Part shown: one piece after another, positions 1,616-49,979 of the stretch
Position numbering within the stretch: the first letter of the stretch is position 1
Layout of the letters: each line of letters starts with the position of its first letter
Source of the DNA: a virus
Virus record (IMG/VR): IMGVR_UViG_3300034071_001414
Coordinates: 34,518-98,517 of that record
DNA length: 64,000 nucleotides
Strand: one strand, 5' to 3'
Made by a program: the position numbers and the translations under genes
The notes under the pieces: generated by a model
Database searches by the model: none
The model's input: the letters and a program-made list of their open reading frames with translations, nothing else
Told to the model about the DNA's origin: nothing

Positions 1616-4600
1616 ATGACAGAAAAAAGAATTCAAATTAAAGACATTGTAAATAACCAACTTCCACAATATGTGAAGGAAGATTATCCTCTTGTTGCTG
1701 AATTTCTTAAACAGTACTATTTGTCTCAGGAATTTCCAGGTGGTCCTGCTGATTTAATACAAAATATTGATAGGTATGTAAAAGTAGATAGCACAACAGA
1801 ACTGGTAGATTTTGTTCTTTTACAATCTGATATTTCTAGTATAGATGAAAACATATCAGTAGATTTTTTAAATTTTGAGCAAAATCAAATTGATTTTCCA
1901 GATAATTACGGTTTAATATCAATAGATGATGAATTAATTTTATATGAAAATAAAACTACATTTGGATTTGAAAATTGTCACAGAGGATTTAGTGGCATAA
2001 TATCTCACAAAAATATAAACGTTGGAATAGCTTCTACTTATATTCTTCGTCCTTCCGATGAATTAATTTTTAAAAAATCAGACTCTTCTTCACATAAATC
2101 TGGTACAAAAATTTATAATTTAAGTTCTTTATTTTTAAAAGAATTTTTACTTAAATTAAAATATCAATTAACACCAGGATTTGAGGGTAGAAGTTTTGTC
2201 GAAAAAGCGAACGAAGCAACTATCATTAAACAAATAAAAGATTTTTATAAAAGTAAAGGTACAGATCAATCGTTTGAAATTTTATTTAGATCTTTATATG
2301 GCGAAGACGTAGAAGTATTACGCCCAAAAAATTTCCTTTTTAGACCATCAGACGCTCAGTATAAAATAACAAATGATTTTATTGTAGAAAAAATATCTGG
2401 TCCAATAGAAAAAATTAGAAATCTGACATTATTTCAGAATGAATATTTAAATATTACAAAAGCTTATGGTACAATAACTGAACCTCTTGAAGAGATAGTT
2501 ACAAGCGATGGTAAAATATTTTATAAGTTAAAAATTGATGGTGGATATAATAGGGATATTATATCTGATGGTGCCATTTATGGAGGTTTTTCCGTACATC
2601 CAAAAACTAGAGTTATTGGAGATTATAATACGCAATCTACTACAATAGATGTTGATTCCACTGTAGGGTTCCCAAATAAAGGTGAATTTTTAGTAAATTA
2701 TGAGGATGGTACACAGGGCGTAGTTTCATACAATTCCAAAAGTTTAACCCAGTTTATTGAATGCTCTGGCATTACAAAAAATATTTTAGATAATTCTATA
2801 ATTGGGGTTAACACTTACGCATATGCTAATACAGAAGATGGTGAAGAAATTAGAGTAAGAATTGTTTCTACTTTAAATGATTTGGATATTCCGGATGATA
2901 ATATTTTGTTTACTGAAGGTGATACTATAAAAATAAAAACACTTGGTTTTGAAGATGGTGATACAAGATTAAACGAGTGGTTATTTAACTTACCTATTGT
3001 TTATGATGTAGAGTCTTATGGTATAGTTGACAATTTTGATAATACTTATTCATTATCTTTAAAAGATACCCACAATTTAAAAGTTGGTGATGTATTGCAA
3101 ATTATTGATAATTTGGGTAATAGGAAGCAATCTACTATAATTGACGTAATTTCAAATAAAACAATTATTATTTCTGGACAGGGATTTTTGCCCGAAAGTT
3201 TATACAAAGTAAAGAGAAATATTTTAAAAGGAAATTCATCAAAATATTCATATATTGGAGAAATTTCAACAGATATTCAAAATGTTTATACAAACAAAAA
3301 TAATGATATATTAATATCTTCCCCATCTATTCCATATTATCCAAATGCCCAATTAAATTTAAATAATAGAACTATTTCTTTTTCTGGATCTTACAGTGCA
3401 GGATCTACAATATTTAAATTAACATCTACCATCGATCACGGATTTTATACGGGAGATTGCGTTTATTATACACCAGAAAAGGAAACAATTCAATCTAGAG
3501 ACATTGATGGAAATATAAACAATCTTGAAATAATATCAACTTCTTTATTTGATGAAGGAATTTATTTCATTAAAAGAATTGATAAAAACAATGTTAAATT
3601 ATCAAAAAGTAAATCTGATATTCTATATGAAAAGTATGTATCTCCGGAAGATGACGTTGTAATTAATAATAATAAGATAGAACCTATAGAATTTAGAGGT
3701 AAAGCGATAAAATCGCAAAAATTACTAAGAGAAATTTCTACACCAATTATATCAGAAAAATTAGAAAAAACATCTCCTGGATTTACTGGTATTTTAATCA
3801 ATGGCACAGAAATTTTAAATTATAAATCAAAGGACAAAATTATCTTTGGTCCTTTAGAACAAATTGATGTAGTTTCGGGTGGATCTGATTATGATGTAAT
3901 AAATCCACCTAGAGTAATAATTTCAGATTCGGTAGGGAGTGGAGCCACTGGACATTGTTCAGTTTCTGGTTCTTTAAAAGAAATTCGCATACTAGATCCT
4001 GGTTTTGACTATTTGGAAGATCCAATTGTACAAATTACCGGAGGTAATGGAATTGGTGCTATAGCCAAATGTAACACTAAATTGATTACACACAAATCCA
4101 CATTTAATTCAGAAAAAGGTTCTGGATTGGTTGGGATTGGCAGCACTATCTCTACTATTGGATTCTCTACTTATCATAAATTTAGAAATGGAGAAGAGGT
4201 AATATATAAAACCAACTCTCATATCTCAGTTGGTGGATTGTCTACAGATTCAAAGTATTACGTTTCTACAGTTTCTGCAACAAAAATAAAATTACACAAA
4301 ACACTAGGTGATTCTATTTCAGGAATAAACACAGTAACATTAACTGATTATGGAGTAGGAAATCACGATTTTGAATCTGTAAATCTGAAAAGAATCCTAT
4401 CATCTATAAATGTAGAAAATTCCGGAAGTGGATATCAAAATAAAAAAAGAACGGTTTCATATTCAGGTATTAATATTGCTTCAGATATAATAACAATAGA
4501 AAATCATGGTTTTCTTTCTAAAGAAATTGTAAAATATAGCACAATAGGGACTGTTATTGGTGGATTGGTAGAAGATAAAAATTATTATGTATTAAAAATA

Positions 4601-18600: not shown

Positions 18601-21600
18601 TGATGGAGATATTACCACAGTAAATTCATACAATTCTTTTGATTATATTTCTGATATTGGTAGTGTAAATGGAATTAGAAATACTGATATTATTGATATT
18701 AGACCTGTAGTAAATAATTATTCTGTTTCAGTAGGTTCTCGTTCTCCTTTAGAATTTTATGGAAGAACTTTTAATTCTGTTTCAAATTCATCAAATACTA
18801 TACTATCTTCCGACGAAAGTTTAATTACATCATTCTCATTTTATTTGGGAAGAATTGATTCAATTTATTTATCAAAAGATGGAAAGTTTCAAGTAAAATA
18901 TGGAACTCCTTCGGAGAGACCAGAAAGACCAGTATCGGTAGATGATTCTTTAGAAATAGCAACAATTTCTTTACCCCCATATCTGTATTCTAATCGTCAA
19001 GCATCTATAAGATTTTTAGAATATAAAAGATATAGAATGAGTGATATAAAAAATCTTGAGAATAGAATTAAAAATCTAGAATATTATACTTCTCTTTCAT
19101 TATTAGAAACAAATACTTCTAATTTATTCATTTCCGATTCTGAAGGATTTAATAGATTTAAATCTGGATTTTTTGTGGATAATTTTACCTCATATTTACC
19201 ACAAGAATCTAGTACAGATATCAACAATTCTATCGATATTGAATTTAAAGAACTAAGACCAAAAGCTTATACGTCTTCAATAGATTTAAAACCTGGATAT
19301 TCTTCAGTAAACGCATCTACTGCAGATTTGGCATTTGAATCTCCAGATGGAATTAATATTAGAAAATCTGGTGATATCATAACTTTGGATTATGCCGAAG
19401 TTGAATGGTTAAAACAATCTTTTGCAACAAGATCAGAAAGTGTAACACCATTCCTTATTAGTTTTTGGCAAGGAACTGTAGAACTTACTCCAGCTTCAGA
19501 TACCTGGATGGATACTGTTAGAATTGAAGCAAAAATCATTGATGTTGAAGGAAATTATTCAACAACTTTAGCAGATGCAACAAGAAGATTAAATGTTGAC
19601 CCACAAACTGGTTTTGCACCAACTGTTTGGAATGCATGGACAACAAATTGGACAGGAAGATCAGTGTCCACAAGCACTAGAAATGTAACTTCTTCTTCAA
19701 TTAGTTCCTTTTGGTCAGGCGCTCAACTAATTGAACAGGTAGATAATGTTGTAATTCAGCAAACACTACAAAACATAACAGAGACTGGAGTTGAATCAAG
19801 AACTGGAACTAGAACAGTAATCACTGAGCAATTTGATAGGACTTCTGTTGGTGATAGAGTTGTAAGTAGAGATATTATTCCGTACATGAGGTCTAGAAAC
19901 GTTCAATTTGTTTCCAAAAAACTTAAACCACTTACTCAAATTTATACATTTTTCGACGGAAAAGACGTAACAAAATACTGTGTTCCCAAACTTCTTGAAA
20001 TTACTATGTCATCCGGAGTATTTCAAGTTGGAGAAACGATAACAGGATATATTCAACAAACTGGAACAGGTGTAAATGCAAATAATATGTTAGCAAAGAT
20101 TACTTTTAGAGTCGCACAAACTAATCATAGAGAAGGAGCATATAACTCACCCACAGTAACATATCCAAGAAATCCATACAATTCCCAAATTCTTCCTCCA
20201 ACATATTCATCGACTTCAACGATATTGAACGTTGACACATTTTCTCTTTCAAATTCAACTCAAGGAGAATTTGGTGGATGGGTAGAAACCGGTATGATTT
20301 TAATAGGTAATACTAGCAAAGCACAAGCAACTATTACAAATTTAAGACTAATATCAGATTTATCTGCCACACTAATAGGAAGTTTTTATATTCCAAACCC
20401 AAATGCAAATATTCATCCAAGATTTGAGTCTGGAACAAAAACTTTCACTTTAGTCAATAGTGCAACTAATGATCAAAATGCAGCAACTACTATTGCAGAG
20501 GAGGCATTTACTTCCAGCGGAACTATTGAGACTGTTCAAGAAAATATTGTTTCAGTAAGAAACGCTAGAATTGAAAATAAGCAAGAATTTGATTCCAGAG
20601 CAGTTTCTAGGACAACTGGCACTCAAGTAGTAAATAGCAGAGTCATAGCATCATCATCCTCTAGCAGAGTTATAGGGTGGTATGACCCATTAGCACAATC
20701 ATTCTTAGTTGATAATGAAGATGGTGTTTTCTTGACTAGTTGTGATGTATTCTTCAAAACAAAGGATGATACAGATATTCCAGTTACTTTTCAATTGAGA
20801 ACTATGAAGGGTGGATTTCCCACTCAATATGTTCTTCCACTATCAGAAATTATACTCAGTCCAGAACAGGTTAATGTTTCTGGCGATGGATCTGTATCAA
20901 CTAGGGTAACATTTAAAGCACCAGTTTATTTACAGGGAGGAGGTGAATATTGCATTTGTCTTGCATCAAATTCTACAAAATATAGTGTTTATATATCTAG
21001 AATAGGCGAAAATGATTTGTTGACGCAGACATTCATATCCAATCAACCATATCTAGGTTCATTATTTAAGTCGCAAAATGCTTCTACATGGGAAGCAAGT
21101 CAGTGGGAAGACCTCAAATTTACTTTATACAGAGCGGATTTTATTGAAAATGGTTCTATAGATTTTTACAATCCAGATTTAACTGAAGGTAATGCGCAAA
21201 TTGCAAAGTTAATGCCAAATTCTCTGCAATTCAATTCTAAAAAAATTAGAGTAAGTCTTTCATCTACTATTTCAGACTCTGACATAAGACTTGGAAATAC
21301 AATAATCCAAGCAAATACTAGTGGAAGAGGAAATTATGTAGGAAGTGCTGGAAGTGCAACTGGGACTCTTTCAGTAAGCAATTCTGGTATTGGATACACT
21401 CCAGGCCCAGGTTCTGGTGGATATACATTCAATAATGTAAGTTTAACTACAATTACAGGTAAAGGTGCGGGAGCTACAGCAAATATAACTATTTCAAATG
21501 GAGTTGCTGCAGCTGCCACGATTGTTAGTGGTGGAAGTGGATATCAATCTGGCGATGTTTTGGGGATTAGTAGTATTGGAAATACTCCAGTGGGAACAAA

Positions 21601-23140
21601 TGCAAGATTAACTATAGTTTCCATAGGCAATACGAACCAAATTATTATAGATAATGTCCAAGGAGAATTTGAAACTGGTGTAGGAAAGACTATTAGATAT
21701 ATTAATAGTTCTGGAATTTCCACCAATTTAAATGCATCTTTTGGTGGAAATATTCTTGCAAATGAAATTATTACTGAAAGTGACGGTTTGCATGTGAGAA
21801 TAAATCATAAAAATCATGGAATGTATTTTGATAACAATTTTGTTAATATATTTGGAGTTGAATCTGATGTAAAGCCAACTAAATTATCCGTACCATACTC
21901 ATCAGACTCTACTGGAGAAATAACTGTTGAAGATGCATCACAATTTACAAATTTTGAAGGTGTGGGAGTTGGAACAACAAATCCAGGATATCTTCTAATA
22001 GGAAATGAATTAATAGAATATACTTCAGTTGTTGGTAATACTATTGGTGGAGATATAGTTAGAGGTTTACCATATGGACCAAATACAGTCGCAGTAACTC
22101 ATCCAACAAGTTCTGCAGTTTATAAGTATGAAATTAATAATGTTTCTCTCAGAAGAATTAATAAAACTCATGATTTAAATGATGTAACATCAGAAAATCC
22201 TATTGGATTTGACTATTATAATATTAAATTGGATATGTCTTCGGATGGTGTTGACAGATCTGCTGGTATAGGTTTTAGCAACTTATATCAAAATTTAACT
22301 AAATCAGATGGTGGTTTTAATATAAGAGCATCTCAAAATATTCCATATGAAATTATTTTACCAAATGTTCATAATGTTACAGTAAATGGAACTTCATTGA
22401 GTGCAGAATTAAGAACTGTTACAGGAAAGAGTATAAGTGGAAATGAAATACCATTTATTGATAATGGATTTGAACCTGTCGCAATAAGACAAAATAATTA
22501 TCTTTCTTCACCAAGAATTGTTTGCTCTAAGGTTAATGAGAGAAATCTATTATCAACTTTACCGGAAAACAAATCTTTAACTCTAAGACTTACTTTAGGA
22601 ACAACAAATCCATATCTTTCTCCGGTGATAGATACCCAAAGAATAAGTGCTCAGTTTGTTTCAAATAGGGTTAACAACGTTATAACAAATTATGCAACCG
22701 ACAATAGAGTCAATTCTATTTCAGATGATCCAACATCTTTCCAATACATTTCAAAAGAAATAAACTTAGAAAATTCAGCAACTTCACTTAAAATAATTTT
22801 AGAAGCTTATATTAATTCATATTCTGATATAAGATCTTTCTATTCTATTGGAGAAAATCCTGGATTTTCTCCAATATTCACGCCATTCCCCGGATATGAT
22901 AATCTAAACGAAAAATCTCAAATTATTTCTTTGGAAGACAATAATGGAAGATCAGATTCATTTGTAACTCCAACAAGTTCTCTGGAATATATTTTAAATG
23001 ATAGTGACTTTAAGGAATATGTTTTTACAGTTGACAACTTACCATCATTTAAGAATTTTAGAATTAAATTGTTGGGAACATCGACAAATCAAGTTTTTGT
23101 TCCTAGAATAAGAAATTTAAGAGTTATTTCTCTTGCATAA
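15680..23140 (+). CDS. DUF4815-type giant virion protein (tail/baseplate)
   Basis: 2,486 residues. The N-terminus, with YFDDFNPNNDYHRVLFKPGY followed by PVQARELTTLQSIL, is the signature of the DUF4815 family found in cyanophage and other marine phage virion proteins. The position after gp8 corresponds to the T4 gp9/gp10 fibre-connector region, so attachment to the baseplate periphery or fibre base is plausible. A Gly-Tyr repeat segment sits at about residues 1,894-1,977 (SNSGIGYTPGPGSGGY, SGGSGYQSGD), interrupting otherwise unique sequence. A low-complexity helix-prone stretch near residues 1,110-1,160 (KNLENRIKNLEYY) may trimerise as a short coiled coil. No enzymatic motif is visible. It is contiguous with gp8, with no promoter of its own seen. 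Confidence 0.75.
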   Translation: MSQKTNLNVAPYFDDFNPNNDYHRVLFKPGYPVQARELTTLQSILQNQIEKFGQHFFKEGAKVIPGNTGYSRLYYCVQLENNYLGVPIAAYIDQLVGAKITGQTSGVTAVVDKVLLPQDSERGNLTLYINYLSSSTQNNSTQQFSDGEVLTSNIIITSGLLGNTSIAVGEPFASTISTNSTTIASCFNISEGVYFIRGQFVNVKTETLILDQYTNNPNYRVGLYIDEQIVNSNTDETLNDNSQGFNNYAAPGADRLKISAYLFKKSLTDFDDGNFVELATIVDGIIRSKTEDDKYSFIKDEFARRTYAESGNYLVSPFDISVEESLNNQKGNNGTFTKTQITYGGNTPSESKAVYKISPGKAFIRGYEVETISSTFLDVDKPRTTQILENQSINYSTGPTLKLNRVYGSSPVGLGNTFILSLRNERVGSSGTLSAGKEIGLARVYDFSLDSGSYSTSNSNLNEWNISLFDIQTFTNITLNNSVTLSTPTFVKGNNSGATAFLKDNIVGTDLTLYDVKGSFIPFESFSFDGIDSGIIGIAVTSYGISDIKSVYGNVSSASTFSADVIQSTAFNVGIATISAVSSGVSTVRSSNILFPGNIVKVGNLVKYSDSTKTTPVVAKVIGVGASTISITGVTTVSGIVDGSLPTSSLNVTDFAVLKTDLEKSTDNTLYSRLPKTNISNVDLSNSTLNVRKTFTVNISNNKLSTAVTSGTNETFLPFTEKRYSLVRSNGTTEVLTPDKFEFTSGGTELQIYNLGSNDTNATLVATLQKIKPKAKVKRKNRVNSIIIENSKYEGSGIGGTTLNDGLVYGEYPYGTRVQDENICLNVADIIEIHGIYESEDTSNPSAPKAVLASITSQSSTTSELIVGEEILGTTSGAVAIVAEKLTSSQISLLYKNQNIFNEGEVITFSESNIQAQIVTLDTPSFEISFNYTFNRGQNGSFYDYGYLTRKVNVSEPTKKLKIYFSNGYYESTDDGDITTVNSYNSFDYISDIGSVNGIRNTDIIDIRPVVNNYSVSVGSRSPLEFYGRTFNSVSNSSNTILSSDESLITSFSFYLGRIDSIYLSKDGKFQVKYGTPSERPERPVSVDDSLEIATISLPPYLYSNRQASIRFLEYKRYRMSDIKNLENRIKNLEYYTSLSLLETNTSNLFISDSEGFNRFKSGFFVDNFTSYLPQESSTDINNSIDIEFKELRPKAYTSSIDLKPGYSSVNASTADLAFESPDGINIRKSGDIITLDYAEVEWLKQSFATRSESVTPFLISFWQGTVELTPASDTWMDTVRIEAKIIDVEGNYSTTLADATRRLNVDPQTGFAPTVWNAWTTNWTGRSVSTSTRNVTSSSISSFWSGAQLIEQVDNVVIQQTLQNITETGVESRTGTRTVITEQFDRTSVGDRVVSRDIIPYMRSRNVQFVSKKLKPLTQIYTFFDGKDVTKYCVPKLLEITMSSGVFQVGETITGYIQQTGTGVNANNMLAKITFRVAQTNHREGAYNSPTVTYPRNPYNSQILPPTYSSTSTILNVDTFSLSNSTQGEFGGWVETGMILIGNTSKAQATITNLRLISDLSATLIGSFYIPNPNANIHPRFESGTKTFTLVNSATNDQNAATTIAEEAFTSSGTIETVQENIVSVRNARIENKQEFDSRAVSRTTGTQVVNSRVIASSSSSRVIGWYDPLAQSFLVDNEDGVFLTSCDVFFKTKDDTDIPVTFQLRTMKGGFPTQYVLPLSEIILSPEQVNVSGDGSVSTRVTFKAPVYLQGGGEYCICLASNSTKYSVYISRIGENDLLTQTFISNQPYLGSLFKSQNASTWEASQWEDLKFTLYRADFIENGSIDFYNPDLTEGNAQIAKLMPNSLQFNSKKIRVSLSSTISDSDIRLGNTIIQANTSGRGNYVGSAGSATGTLSVSNSGIGYTPGPGSGGYTFNNVSLTTITGKGAGATANITISNGVAAAATIVSGGSGYQSGDVLGISSIGNTPVGTNARLTIVSIGNTNQIIIDNVQGEFETGVGKTIRYINSSGISTNLNASFGGNILANEIITESDGLHVRINHKNHGMYFDNNFVNIFGVESDVKPTKLSVPYSSDSTGEITVEDASQFTNFEGVGVGTTNPGYLLIGNELIEYTSVVGNTIGGDIVRGLPYGPNTVAVTHPTSSAVYKYEINNVSLRRINKTHDLNDVTSENPIGFDYYNIKLDMSSDGVDRSAGIGFSNLYQNLTKSDGGFNIRASQNIPYEIILPNVHNVTVNGTSLSAELRTVTGKSISGNEIPFIDNGFEPVAIRQNNYLSSPRIVCSKVNERNLLSTLPENKSLTLRLTLGTTNPYLSPVIDTQRISAQFVSNRVNNVITNYATDNRVNSISDDPTSFQYISKEINLENSATSLKIILEAYINSYSDIRSFYSIGENPGFSPIFTPFPGYDNLNEKSQIISLEDNNGRSDSFVTPTSSLEYILNDSDFKEYVFTVDNLPSFKNFRIKLLGTSTNQVFVPRIRNLRVISLA

Positions 23141-46574: not shown

Positions 46575-46846
46575 TGTTTATTCTAACAATCAGCGGTAGA
46601 GAAACTGAAGGTGCATATTCTGTAATTGATGATGAAGGAGAACATATTTTATATCTCTTTCAGGAAGAAGATGATGCTGTCAGATATGCTATGATGTTAG
46701 AAGAAGAAGGTTCTCCAGAAATGCATGTAATTGAAATTGATGACGATGTAATGATACAAACATGCGAAATGCACGGGTATCAATATACTATTATTACTCC
46801 AGATGACATTGTAATTCCTCCAAACTCAGATCATGATTTTATTTAA
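46574..46846 (+). CDS. DUF3110-like small protein between gp47 and gp46
   Basis: 90 residues, starting inside the gp47 stop and overlapping gp46 by 14 bp, so it is translationally linked to both recombination genes. The sequence MFILTISGRETEGAYSVIDD followed by LYLFQEEDDAVRYAMMLEEE resembles the DUF3110 family common in cyanobacteria and cyanophages, which has a ferredoxin-like look (FEKEDDAERYALMLEA-type motif). It is very acidic. A regulatory or structural role in the gp46/gp47 complex is possible but not shown. Confidence 0.65.
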   Translation: MFILTISGRETEGAYSVIDDEGEHILYLFQEEDDAVRYAMMLEEEGSPEMHVIEIDDDVMIQTCEMHGYQYTIITPDDIVIPPNSDHDFI

Positions 46847-48545
46847 AACAATTCGTTGGAAAAACTTCTTAAGTACCGGAAATCAATATACGGAAGTTGA
46901 CTTTACAAAAAACAAAACCAATTTGATCATCGGAACAAATGGAGCAGGTAAGAGTACCGTTCTAGATGCTTTGACTTTTTCTTTATTTGGAAAACCGTTT
47001 CGTAAAATTAATAAACCACAACTTATTAATTCTGTGAATGAGAAGGATTGTAGAGTTGAGGTTGAGTTTAGTATTGGAAATATTGAATGGAAAGTTGTAA
47101 GAGGAATTAAACCAGCACTTTTTGAAATTTGGAGAAATGATGTTGCACTAGACCAATCATCTGCTGCTTTGGATCAGCAAAAATGGTTAGAGCAAAATGT
47201 TCTTAAAATGAACTATAAATCTTTCACTCAAATTGTTATCTTGGGTTCAAGTACTTTTGTTCCTTTTATGCAACTTTCTGTAGCACATCGTCGAGAAGTA
47301 ATTGAGGACTTGCTTGATATTAAAATTTTCTCTTCTATGAATGTTGTCATTAAAGAGAAAATTCGTCAGGCAAAAGAAGAAATTAAAATTCTAGATCTCA
47401 AGAAACAATCTCTTGCCGAAAAACTTAAGATGCAAGAAGAGTTTATTGGGGAGTTGGAAAATCGAGGAAAGGAAAATATAAACAATAATAATCGGAAAAT
47501 TTCCGATTTAGATAGCGAAATAGAACAATATTTGCGGGAAAATGAGTCTGTAGAAGAACCTCTTCGGGAACTTATTCGTGAGCAAGATTCTATCATTGGA
47601 TATTCGGAAAAACTTCGTAAACTGGGAAATCTTAAAGGAAAAATTTCTCAAAAAGTATCTGCTATTACTAAAGAGCACAAGTTTTTCACTGAGAATATGG
47701 TATGCCCCACCTGCACACAACCGATTGATGAAGAGTTTAGAATAAATAGAGTTACAGACGCTCAAAATAAAGCAAAGGAGTTGCAATCTGGTTATAAAGA
47801 ACTAGAGGAGGCAATTAAAGAGGAAGAGGAGCGAGAGCGTCAATTCAATACTCTAACGAAGGAGATTTCAAAACTAACGAATGGCATTTCTCAAAACAAT
47901 ATCAAGATTAATGGGTGTCGCAGACAGGTCAGAAATCTTGAATCTGAAATTCAAACTCTTACCGAGAACCTTGCAAACAGAAATTCTGAACATGAAAAGT
48001 TAGAATCCTTCAAAGACAACTTAAAAACTACATACGACGACCTCGCTTCTAAAAAAGACTCAATTAACTATTACGATTTTTCGTATAGTTTACTTAAAGA
48101 CGGTGGAGTAAAATCCAAAATCATTAAGAAGTACTTACCGCTGATAAATCAGCAAGTAAACCGTTATCTTCAGATGATGGATTTCTACATTAACTTCACA
48201 CTTGATGAGGAATTTAACGAAACCGTCCAGTCACCTATTCATGAAGATTTTTCTTATGCTTCTTTTAGTGAAGGTGAAAAAATGAGAATTGATTTAGCAC
48301 TTCTTTTCACCTGGAGAGAAGTTGCTAGAATGAAGAACTCAGTCAACACAAATCTCTTGATTATGGATGAGGTGTTTGATAGTTCGCTTGATGGATTTGG
48401 AACCGAAGAATTCCTTAAGATTATTCGTTATGTGATTAAGGATGCAAATATTTTTGTTATCTCTCACAAAACTGGACTAGAGGACAGATTTGAAAGCGTT
48501 ATAAAATTCTCTAAGGTAAAGGGATTTAGTAGAATAGAGCAATAG
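46833..48545 (+). CDS. gp46: Recombination nuclease subunit gp46 (Rad50/SbcC-like)
   Basis: 570 residues; T4 gp46 is 560. This is an ABC-type ATPase with a split head and a long coiled coil. Walker A IGTNGAGKST is at residues 33-42, the zinc-hook VCPTCTQPI near 290, the signature SFSEGEKMRIDLALLF near 477 and Walker B LLIMDEVFDSSLD near 508-520, followed by the FVISHKTG switch. Coiled-coil regions flank the hook (about 180-270 and 310-410). It overlaps the DUF3110-like gene and is followed by the GIY-YIG endonuclease module. Confidence 0.96.
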   Translation: MILFKTIRWKNFLSTGNQYTEVDFTKNKTNLIIGTNGAGKSTVLDALTFSLFGKPFRKINKPQLINSVNEKDCRVEVEFSIGNIEWKVVRGIKPALFEIWRNDVALDQSSAALDQQKWLEQNVLKMNYKSFTQIVILGSSTFVPFMQLSVAHRREVIEDLLDIKIFSSMNVVIKEKIRQAKEEIKILDLKKQSLAEKLKMQEEFIGELENRGKENINNNNRKISDLDSEIEQYLRENESVEEPLRELIREQDSIIGYSEKLRKLGNLKGKISQKVSAITKEHKFFTENMVCPTCTQPIDEEFRINRVTDAQNKAKELQSGYKELEEAIKEEEERERQFNTLTKEISKLTNGISQNNIKINGCRRQVRNLESEIQTLTENLANRNSEHEKLESFKDNLKTTYDDLASKKDSINYYDFSYSLLKDGGVKSKIIKKYLPLINQQVNRYLQMMDFYINFTLDEEFNETVQSPIHEDFSYASFSEGEKMRIDLALLFTWREVARMKNSVNTNLLIMDEVFDSSLDGFGTEEFLKIIRYVIKDANIFVISHKTGLEDRFESVIKFSKVKGFSRIEQ

Positions 48546-48553
48546 TAATATTG

Positions 48554-48561
48554 TATAAATA
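48554..48561 (+). promoter_or_regulatory. Late promoter box upstream of the GIY-YIG endonuclease
   Basis: TATAAATA, exact late element, 25 bp before the start codon. With T4 spacing the RNA would begin near 48567, in the middle of the left arm of the 16-bp inverted repeat. Confidence 0.68.
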
Positions 48562-48607
48562 AGTATAGTAATTTGAAAGTGTAATAATGGAAAATTACTA
48601 TACTTAT
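48559..48607 (+). promoter_or_regulatory. 16-bp perfect inverted repeat around the GIY-YIG start codon
   Basis: ATAAGTATAGTAATTT (48559-48574) and AAATTACTATACTTAT (48592-48607) are exact reverse complements separated by 17 bases. The start codon (48587-48589) and any ribosome binding site lie in the loop, and the right arm encodes residues 2-7. The repeat begins inside the late promoter box, so only longer read-through RNA can form the full stem. Confidence 0.75.
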
Positions 48608-49150
48608 GCTTACTTGAGAGAGGATAAAACTCCATATTATATTGGAAAGGGTAAATGCAAAACTCAAAGACATTTGCATCCTGGACATTATGTTCCTATT
48701 CCACCGGAAGAAAGAATACTTATATTGAAAAATAATATTAGTGAAGATGAAGCAATCAAACACGAAATATATTTAATTTCAATATTTGGAAGAAAGGATA
48801 ATAATACTGGTATTTTGAGAAATCTTACTGATGGCGGTGATGGAAAAAGTGGATGGAAAGCATCTAAAGAAACTTGTGATAAGATAAGTAAATCTCTAAT
48901 GGGAAGAAAAAGAACTCCTGAGCAGATAGAAAAACACAGAATGTCTATGCTTGGTAGAAAACTTTCTGAGGAACATAAAAGAAAAATAGGAGAGGGTGGT
49001 AAAGGTAAAAAAATGAGCCCTGAAACAATAGAAAAAATGAAAGTTGCTGCGAAAAAAAGAGGAAATAATAGAGCAGGGACAAAACATTCTCAAGAAACAA
49101 AAGAAAAGATGAGACAATCTCATCTAAAAAGAAACAAAGGGACACTTTAA
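48587..49150 (+). CDS. GIY-YIG homing endonuclease with NUMOD3 repeats (Seg-like)
   Basis: 187 residues. The nuclease domain begins YYTYAYLREDKTPYYIGKGK, the GIY-YIG signature in its YLR-type variant, and has the conserved Glu in KHEIYLISIFGRKD (about residue 60). Residues about 100-185 contain three or four NUMOD3-type DNA-binding repeats (LSEEHKRKIGEG, MSPETIEKMKVAAKK, HSQETKEKMRQSHLK), very rich in Lys. This is the architecture of free-standing phage endonucleases that cleave an allele lacking the gene and spread by repair. Its neighbour gp46 or the intergenic region after it is the likely homing site. Expression appears restricted to late infection by a start-codon hairpin. Confidence 0.88.
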   Translation: MENYYTYAYLREDKTPYYIGKGKCKTQRHLHPGHYVPIPPEERILILKNNISEDEAIKHEIYLISIFGRKDNNTGILRNLTDGGDGKSGWKASKETCDKISKSLMGRKRTPEQIEKHRMSMLGRKLSEEHKRKIGEGGKGKKMSPETIEKMKVAAKKRGNNRAGTKHSQETKEKMRQSHLKRNKGTL

Positions 49151-49212: not shown

Positions 49213-49350
49213 ATGCAAGTTCCAAACCGATACCATCATTCCAAGAAAGAACAGAAACGAAAACTTAAACCGCAAGCACTGAGGCAAGCAAAAGCACGAA
49301 GACAAGCACTCAAGAAGCGTCTCAATCAACGAGACGCTTCTTTTTTATAA
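49213..49350 (+). CDS. Small very basic ORF whose end encodes a terminator
   Basis: 45 residues, starting MQVPNRYHHSKKEQKRKLKP and continuing with Ala/Arg/Lys/Gln-rich helical sequence (QALRQAKARRQALKKRLNQR). Over one third of residues are Lys or Arg. It fills most of the 223-bp space between the GIY-YIG gene and the next late promoter. The last codons form the intrinsic terminator hairpin. No clear ribosome binding site or promoter is visible, so it could be a chance ORF; the compositional bias and the use of the available space favour a real nucleic-acid-binding peptide. Confidence 0.35.
   Translation: MQVPNRYHHSKKEQKRKLKPQALRQAKARRQALKKRLNQRDASFL
49314..49346 (+). terminator. Intrinsic terminator
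   Basis: GAAGCGTCTC (49314-49323) and GAGACGCTTC (49331-49340) form a perfect 10-bp stem with a 7-base loop followed by six T. It closes the gp46/GIY-YIG unit and is directly followed by a late promoter box. Confidence 0.9.
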
Positions 49351-49353
49351 ATA
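49346..49353 (+). promoter_or_regulatory. Late promoter box upstream of the 49374 gene
   Basis: TATAAATA, exact late element, starting on the last T of the preceding terminator and 20 bp before the start codon. Confidence 0.7.
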
Positions 49354-49373: not shown

Positions 49374-49979
49374 ATGGACGCTAAAGACATTCGCAATCTT
49401 CAAGAAGCATATATGGAAGTTGTTGAAAACCAGCAACTTGATGAAGCAAGAGAAGACGAAGGTTTAACACCTCTCCAAAAAATTAGAAAAAGAAATAAAA
49501 AATATGCTCTTCCTGGAGAACCAGCAGGACAACAAACTTCAAATCGTAGAGCAGAAAGAAGTTCTACAAGAGGAGTTAAAAAGGTAAAAGGTGCTAAAAG
49601 TGCTTTTGGAACTATGAGACATGTTGGTGGTCCATATACAGAAGAAGTAGATATTTACGACATCATCCTCTCACATTTACTTGATGAAGGATATGCTGAT
49701 ACTCAAGAAGCAGCAGAAGCAATTATGGTGAATATGAGTGAAGAGTGGAGAGAAGATATTGTAGAAATCTCACAGAAGACTGCTACAAAAGCATATGCTA
49801 CAAGTTATACTGGTGAGTTTGAAGGTCAAGATTCTCCAAAAAATGTAAAACAAACTGATAATCTTAGAAGACAAATCAAAAGAAAGTTTGGTGATAAAGC
49901 AGCACAACACGCTGATAGAGCAGGACACGCAATGACCTTTGGACGTAAAGGTGCTGGTGGTATGCCCCCAAAACCATAA
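49374..49979 (+). CDS. Late-expressed, possibly capsid-associated protein of unknown function
   Basis: 201 residues. The N-terminus MDAKDIRNLQEAYMEVVENQ, with LQE-type sites suited to the gp21 protease, is typical of several cyanophage late proteins. The middle is basic and Arg/Lys-rich (RKRNKKYALPG, RAERSSTRGVKKVKGAKSAF). A compact helical block DIYDIILSHLLDEGYADTQE followed by AAEAIMVNMSEEWREDIVE forms a recognisable conserved cyanophage module. The C-terminus is basic and Gly/Pro-rich. A perfect late box and a strong downstream terminator make it a single-gene late unit, so a virion or packaging role is reasonable; the function is unknown. Confidence 0.6.
   Translation: MDAKDIRNLQEAYMEVVENQQLDEAREDEGLTPLQKIRKRNKKYALPGEPAGQQTSNRRAERSSTRGVKKVKGAKSAFGTMRHVGGPYTEEVDIYDIILSHLLDEGYADTQEAAEAIMVNMSEEWREDIVEISQKTATKAYATSYTGEFEGQDSPKNVKQTDNLRRQIKRKFGDKAAQHADRAGHAMTFGRKGAGGMPPKP

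Follow-up and report, generated by a model that had tools for sequence, protein, structure and literature searches.

The gp46–endonuclease junction

The window, meaning the whole 64,000-nt stretch of IMG/VR virus record IMGVR_UViG_3300034071_001414 that was analyzed, carries an endonuclease gene directly behind gp46. The features around this junction, all on the plus strand, are as follows.

46833–48545 (+): gp46, SbcC-like recombination endonuclease subunit and putative source of read-through RNA (ORF; AAA_23/SMC_N; blastn to gp46 of many cyanophages)
48554–48561 (+): T4-type late promoter box TATAAATA, identified by sequence; RNA start predicted near 48567, at the T4 spacing of 6 nt past the box
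48559–48574 (+): left hairpin arm, whose 5' half (to 48566) would be missing from the predicted late RNA
48575–48591 (+): hairpin loop, 17 nt, with SD-like GAAAG at 48575–48579 and ATG at 48587–48589
48592–48607 (+): right hairpin arm, within the coding sequence
48587–49150 (+): free-standing GIY-YIG homing-endonuclease-like gene, 187 aa (Pfam, PHROG, alignment)
49213–49350 (+): small basic ORF (MQVPNRYHHSKKEQK...), located directly after gp46 in S-SRM01
49312–49353 (+): terminator-like inverted repeat, whose T run merges with the following late box (TTTTTTATAAATA), which precedes the gene at 49374

The endonuclease matched PHROG 15526 and 314 (homing endonuclease) and carries a C-terminal NUMOD3 at aa 140–176 (Pfam, 2.6e-8), and its YTY..YIGKG, HE and N79 are invariant among 13 relatives. 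Pfam PF01541 itself gave no score on this protein. Judged by its sequence, the gene combines a GIY-YIG catalytic motif with a modular DNA-binding tail and is a free-standing GIY-YIG homing-endonuclease-like gene. S-SRM01 does not have this endonuclease, and its gp46 directly adjoins the small ORF. This adjacency identifies the endonuclease gene as inserted at the gp46 3' end. GIY-YIG endonuclease-like proteins were also seen under the labels translation initiation factor 2 or UvrC in Synechococcus phages B23 (b23_0045), Sf-CH5 (SfCH5_200) and S-CREM2.

An earlier note on this DNA described an exact 16-bp inverted repeat, and the two 16-nt arms are indeed 100% complementary at a spacing of 17 nt. 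The note was also right in placing the start codon in the loop and a late box over the left arm, with which TATAAATA shares 3 nt. Among perfect inverted repeats with loops of 3–60 nt, this is the longest in the window, the runner-up being 14 bp, and 30 first-order Markov sequences of matched composition gave at most 13 bp. The 49-nt hairpin folded at −15.6 kcal/mol (z −6.5), shuffles averaging −4.1, and the read-through leader of 141 nt had a folding z of −4.2. An equally good promoter-spanning stem arose in 0 of 300 shuffles. Chance did not produce a repeat of this length in these comparisons. The late box alone is no evidence, since TATAAATA occurred 5 times in the window vs 8.2 expected by chance (shuffles).

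The right arm is coding, as the note had stated, yet it takes in the last base of the Glu codon, runs on through N-Y-Y-T-Y and excludes the Ala of the proposed ENYYTYA. The amino acids it encodes are nearly all invariant in relatives at other sites, and YTYAY is invariant in 13 of 13 aligned relatives. The suggestion that the hairpin puts these amino acids under an extra constraint is therefore unsupported. The protein already fixes them, so any constraint added by the hairpin would fall mainly on synonymous positions.

Predicted folds and same-site relatives

RNA reading through from gp46 would carry both arms, and its predicted fold forms all 16 pairs. The stem would close 2 nt past the start codon and, on the other side, directly ahead of the SD-like GAAAG, blocking 30S binding, with the SD and ATG themselves in the loop, outside the helix. 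Late RNA from TATAAATA would begin inside the left arm, losing half of the stem. With a maximum of eight weak pairs it would be translatable, and the endonuclease would be made late. We infer the RNA start near 48567, the read-through RNA and the translational block from the sequence and from folding models.

Opening the region from −18 to +10 around the start was predicted to cost 9.4 kcal/mol in the read-through RNA and 5.7 kcal/mol in RNA from 48567. For T4 soc, which is listed as a hairpin-controlled gene (PMC3014915), the same measure gave 7.6 (read-through) and 5.8 kcal/mol (late). The window stem is A-U rich, and its early-minus-late difference of 3.7 kcal/mol is below the class median. 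According to the earlier note, the late RNA keeps at most eight A-U-rich pairs. An 8-bp remnant is possible for RNA from 48567, but an alternative hairpin, AAGUGUA/UAUACUU, competes with it at −6.6 kcal/mol. Because this alternative reaches both the start codon and the SD-like GAAAG, the late RNA would not be fully open. The folding comparison that the note had proposed thus yielded the predicted drop in opening cost, but with a late start region that the alternative hairpin may still partly cover.

Compensation in homologues, the other comparison proposed there, was borne out weakly at the same site. In the test on six sequences, 87% of cells were paired and one compensatory change, A-U to G-C, was found, but 78 of 500 shuffles were equally good, so that covariation at the window site was not significant. 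Leader L001 is identical to the window leader, L002 has one mismatch, and L003–L005 retain part of the stem. The compensatory change lies in L146, which has about 11 pairs and a degenerate box, TATACATA. The early-minus-late opening difference was +3.7 kcal/mol for the window and −1.8, +1.1, −0.4 and −3.0 kcal/mol for L002, L003, L004 and L005, respectively. In these models, the predicted early/late switch is weak or lost in L002–L005.

Promoter-spanning stems in cyanophage endonuclease genes

We scanned 87 genes in which TATAAATA precedes an ORF, taken from eight cyanophage records and part of T4. Gene classes were assigned by PHROGs, with a few obvious capsid and tail genes assigned by eye. 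Three genes of GIY-YIG- or HNH-like appearance with strong stems in front of them, but without an endonuclease match in PHROGs or Pfam, were excluded from the statistics as unclassified. Across the eight cyanophage records, 11 of 21 endonuclease late genes had promoter-spanning stems at p<0.01, compared with 2 of the 61 remaining late genes (Fisher 1.5e-6). The median opening difference was 9.1 vs 1.8 kcal/mol (MWU 1.6e-6). In the window's record, the four endonuclease late genes that were found all have the stem (boxes at G000:C1 3949, 20369, 21720 and 83071, the last being the window copy). The positive controls T4 soc, e, 49, segB and I-TevII were all recovered by the stem detector, which found nothing strong at T4 segA, segF, mobB and mobD.

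A larger IMG/VR set comprised 240 loci from three endonuclease families. Stems at p<=0.05 were present in 44 of 54 unique GIY-YIG leaders, 40 of 43 HNH leaders and 17 of 27 leaders of the third family, fractions that are biased as estimates for all endonucleases because the loci were fetched by protein similarity to stem-bearing genes. Relatives of the window endonuclease at other sites have entirely different leader sequences with the same logic.

To search without regard to gene type, a covariance model built from the HNH leaders was run against 1.53 Mb of cyanophage sequence. Of its 16 matches at E<=0.5, twelve fell below 0.001, and all 16 precede endonuclease or GIY-YIG/HNH-like genes, with L068:16459, L090:1560, L093:3703 and L116:10621 typed by eye or by mutual similarity, without an endonuclease family match. 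The model misses the window copy, which has a different geometry. The proteins at L068:16459–17139, L090:1560–2642 and L093:3703–4374 form a family (IYVYKITFEEVQYYYYG.HKEK) with a GIY-YIG-like look and the same kind of leader. No endonuclease model matched this family in Pfam or, where scanned, PHROGs.

Base pairing was examined in 54 HNH-family leaders aligned with MAFFT, the structure being unused in aligning. The arm pairs contained 176 double-changed cells vs 53.6 expected in shuffles (0/500), counts that relatedness inflates somewhat and that slid controls and unique arms control in part. The covariation score was 0.544 vs 0.167 in shuffles and at most 0.133 in slid controls. Additionally, the stems contained 75 G.T vs 15 A.C mismatches (p 9e-11) under a scoring blind to the difference, and 56 vs 11 when only unique arms were counted. 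This excess of G.T argues that pairing occurs in the sense RNA. Promoter-spanning, base-pair-conserved stems are a feature of endonuclease genes in the window's phage and related phages. In this wider class, the leader pairing very probably represents a conserved RNA structure that acts on the endonuclease gene.

These class-wide stems and their covariation are the main support for reading the window hairpin as a lock, though most of the leaders differ from it in geometry. We consider it probable that the window hairpin is a cis-acting RNA lock for late-only expression, working by the mechanism of T4 soc and segB. The T4-like logic put forward in the earlier note is accordingly kept as the best reading in view of this geometry, but compensation at the site itself is weak.

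The 16-bp perfection could instead be incidental, an AT-rich leader and a coding arm having matched by chance or through quasi-palindrome correction, with only the late promoter of any consequence. The weakened or lost switch in L002–L005 and the nonsignificant covariation at the locus speak for it. The shuffles and the rank of the repeat in the window speak against it, as do the roughly 11 pairs and one compensatory change of L146 and the occurrence of the same geometry in T4 soc and segB. We regard an incidental match as unlikely, while giving it appreciable weight. A stem of 13–16 bp between genes is compatible with RNase processing, and the hairpin could in principle be a site (e.g., for RNase III) that separates gp46 RNA from endonuclease RNA. 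Such a site leaves unexplained the position of the late promoter, between or within the arms, and that of the right arm, just before or over the start, and we consider processing very improbable. Only slightly less remote is a DNA operator or cruciform, in which the endonuclease would bind the repeat over its own late promoter and repress transcription, as I-TevI does at an operator over its late promoter (PMC2988022). The arm sequences of relatives differ completely while pairing is kept, and the mismatches are G.T rather than A.C, which points to RNA; both arguments come from the class as a whole rather than the window locus alone, and the wobble asymmetry led us to disfavor the DNA reading.

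For the cis-acting lock, the T4 precedent cited in the earlier note holds up, with e, soc and 49 recovered by our detector and I-TevI described in the literature (PMC2988022). The closest counterpart is T4 segB, also a free-standing GIY-YIG gene, with late box CATAAATA in the left arm (AGAACATAAATA/TATTTATGTTCT) and a hairpin over the start codon (PMC3014915, PMC2988022). The segB ATG lies in the right arm, whereas the window copy holds both ATG and SD in its loop and has a right arm made of coding sequence further downstream. In T4 soc, the late box likewise abuts or overlaps the left arm, and the predicted RNA start inside the arm leaves a short remnant in the late RNA, but soc is a capsid gene and its right arm contains the ATG. 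T4 e and 49 also have late promoters in the 5' strand of an inhibitory hairpin (PMC3014915), although they are not homing endonucleases. Reviews list I-TevI–III, T4 segB and Aeh1 mobE as endonucleases with such hairpins (PMC2988022, PMC3014915). In the I-Tev genes and mobE, the hairpin blocks translation of early/middle RNA and a nearby late promoter escapes it (PMC2988022), but the former are intron-encoded and the latter is an HNH gene. The geometry thus fits late-only control of a free-standing cyanophage endonuclease, as the note had it, but the control type was already known from segB and mobE. We found no paper on hairpin-locked endonucleases in cyanophages in a literature search that had most subscription papers outside its reach.

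The base-pair-conserved leader marks cyanophage homing endonuclease genes almost specifically and is common to unrelated endonuclease families, making it a sequence signature for locating such genes. Its distribution suggests that late-only expression is under strong selection in free-standing selfish endonucleases.

Cassette leaders and a predicted small RNA

The commoner leader order among the relatives is an upstream late box, a small hairpin, a terminator, a second late box and a 5' leader complementary to the first hairpin. Unlike the T4 examples, these cassette leaders add an upstream late box, hairpin and terminator. The window hairpin joins the already known T4 soc/segB type, and the cassette form is a new version of it.

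Of 85 unique leaders, 60 have a second TAAATA immediately before the left arm (1.6 expected), and it often overlaps the stop codon of the preceding gene. In 37 cases it is of the type NATAAATA, a late box known in cyanophages (PMC2984593), and the remainder are mostly NCTAAATA. Both types were enriched upstream of ORFs in S-SRM01, an isolated phage of Synechococcus that carries many cassettes (40 vs 0.4 and 5 vs 0.2, respectively). In 42 of the 60 leaders, the left arm begins 6–7 nt past the upstream TAAATA, at the predicted +1, and the distance from there to the T run is 47–57 nt in most leaders (median 53). Folded alone, 54 of 56 predicted small RNAs formed two distinct hairpins, one at the 5' end and one as terminator, with a median z of −3.3. 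The apical loop falls within the arm that is complementary to the predicted 5' end of the mRNA, with a median of 88% of the loop lying there. Box, hairpin, terminator and complementary loop together predict a late RNA of about 53 nt, antisense to the 5' end of the endonuclease mRNA that would be initiated at the second late box. Unique IMG/VR leaders L150, L160 and L189 are examples of this layout.

We tentatively propose, aware that the proposal is somewhat more apt to be wrong than right, that the cassette leaders encode this RNA as a late same-strand antisense brake on the selfish gene, that the arms would in addition be a cis lock in read-through RNA, and that the whole would be a portable module of GIY-YIG and HNH genes, with the window copy a simple soc/segB-type exception. 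Alternatively, cassettes may insert right behind native late boxes, and the small RNA may be a by-product. Covariation between the left arm and its local partner gave 29 double changes vs 15.3 expected (0/500), but a slide of −3 columns equals it, so the MAFFT alignment is no proof of pairing in the small-RNA hairpin. The existence of a tiny antisense RNA made by the phage is a prediction of the cassette leader that can be tested.

The window copy does not show the five-element layout, having one late box, no loop terminator and no upstream TAAATA at the arm. The cassette form is present at three other endonuclease genes of the window's record (G000:C1 ~3863–3984, 20287–20403 and 21643–21754; L079, L080), and the arm sequences of these three copies are unrelated. 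Near-identical leaders also precede unrelated endonucleases. GIY-YIG leader L182 and HNH leader L272 have a similarity of 0.93, L152 and L243 one of 0.91, and L160/L299 and L197/L270 are GIY-YIG and HNH endonucleases with near-identical 110-nt leaders. These shared leaders indicate that leader and endonuclease have been reshuffled and that the leader is exchanged as a module.

Phage P1/P7 c4 is a comparable small RNA against an mRNA start region for the cassette leaders. They also resemble IS10, in which RNA-OUT pairs through its first 35 nt with the start region of RNA-IN, which it represses (PMC5006887). RNA-OUT comes from the opposite strand, whereas the cassette RNA, predicted only, would come from the same strand, upstream, with its own late box. 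Another antisense RNA, CfrI of cyanophage S-PM2, is also associated with the homing endonuclease gene of a cyanophage (PMC2984593, PMC12197685), but it is about 225 nt long, lies on the opposite strand between psbA and F-CphI, and has no hairpin lock described.

A search of four stretches (119 kb) against Rfam brought no family to gathering score. When two cassette leaders were searched as DNA in named phages, one matched S-SRM01 only and the other none. A second leader type (L184, L187, L198, L201, L207 and L276) has the order GTGGGCAGCAAC, arm, GTTGC..GTCCCAC TTTTAT, and its terminator stem seems to enclose the left arm.
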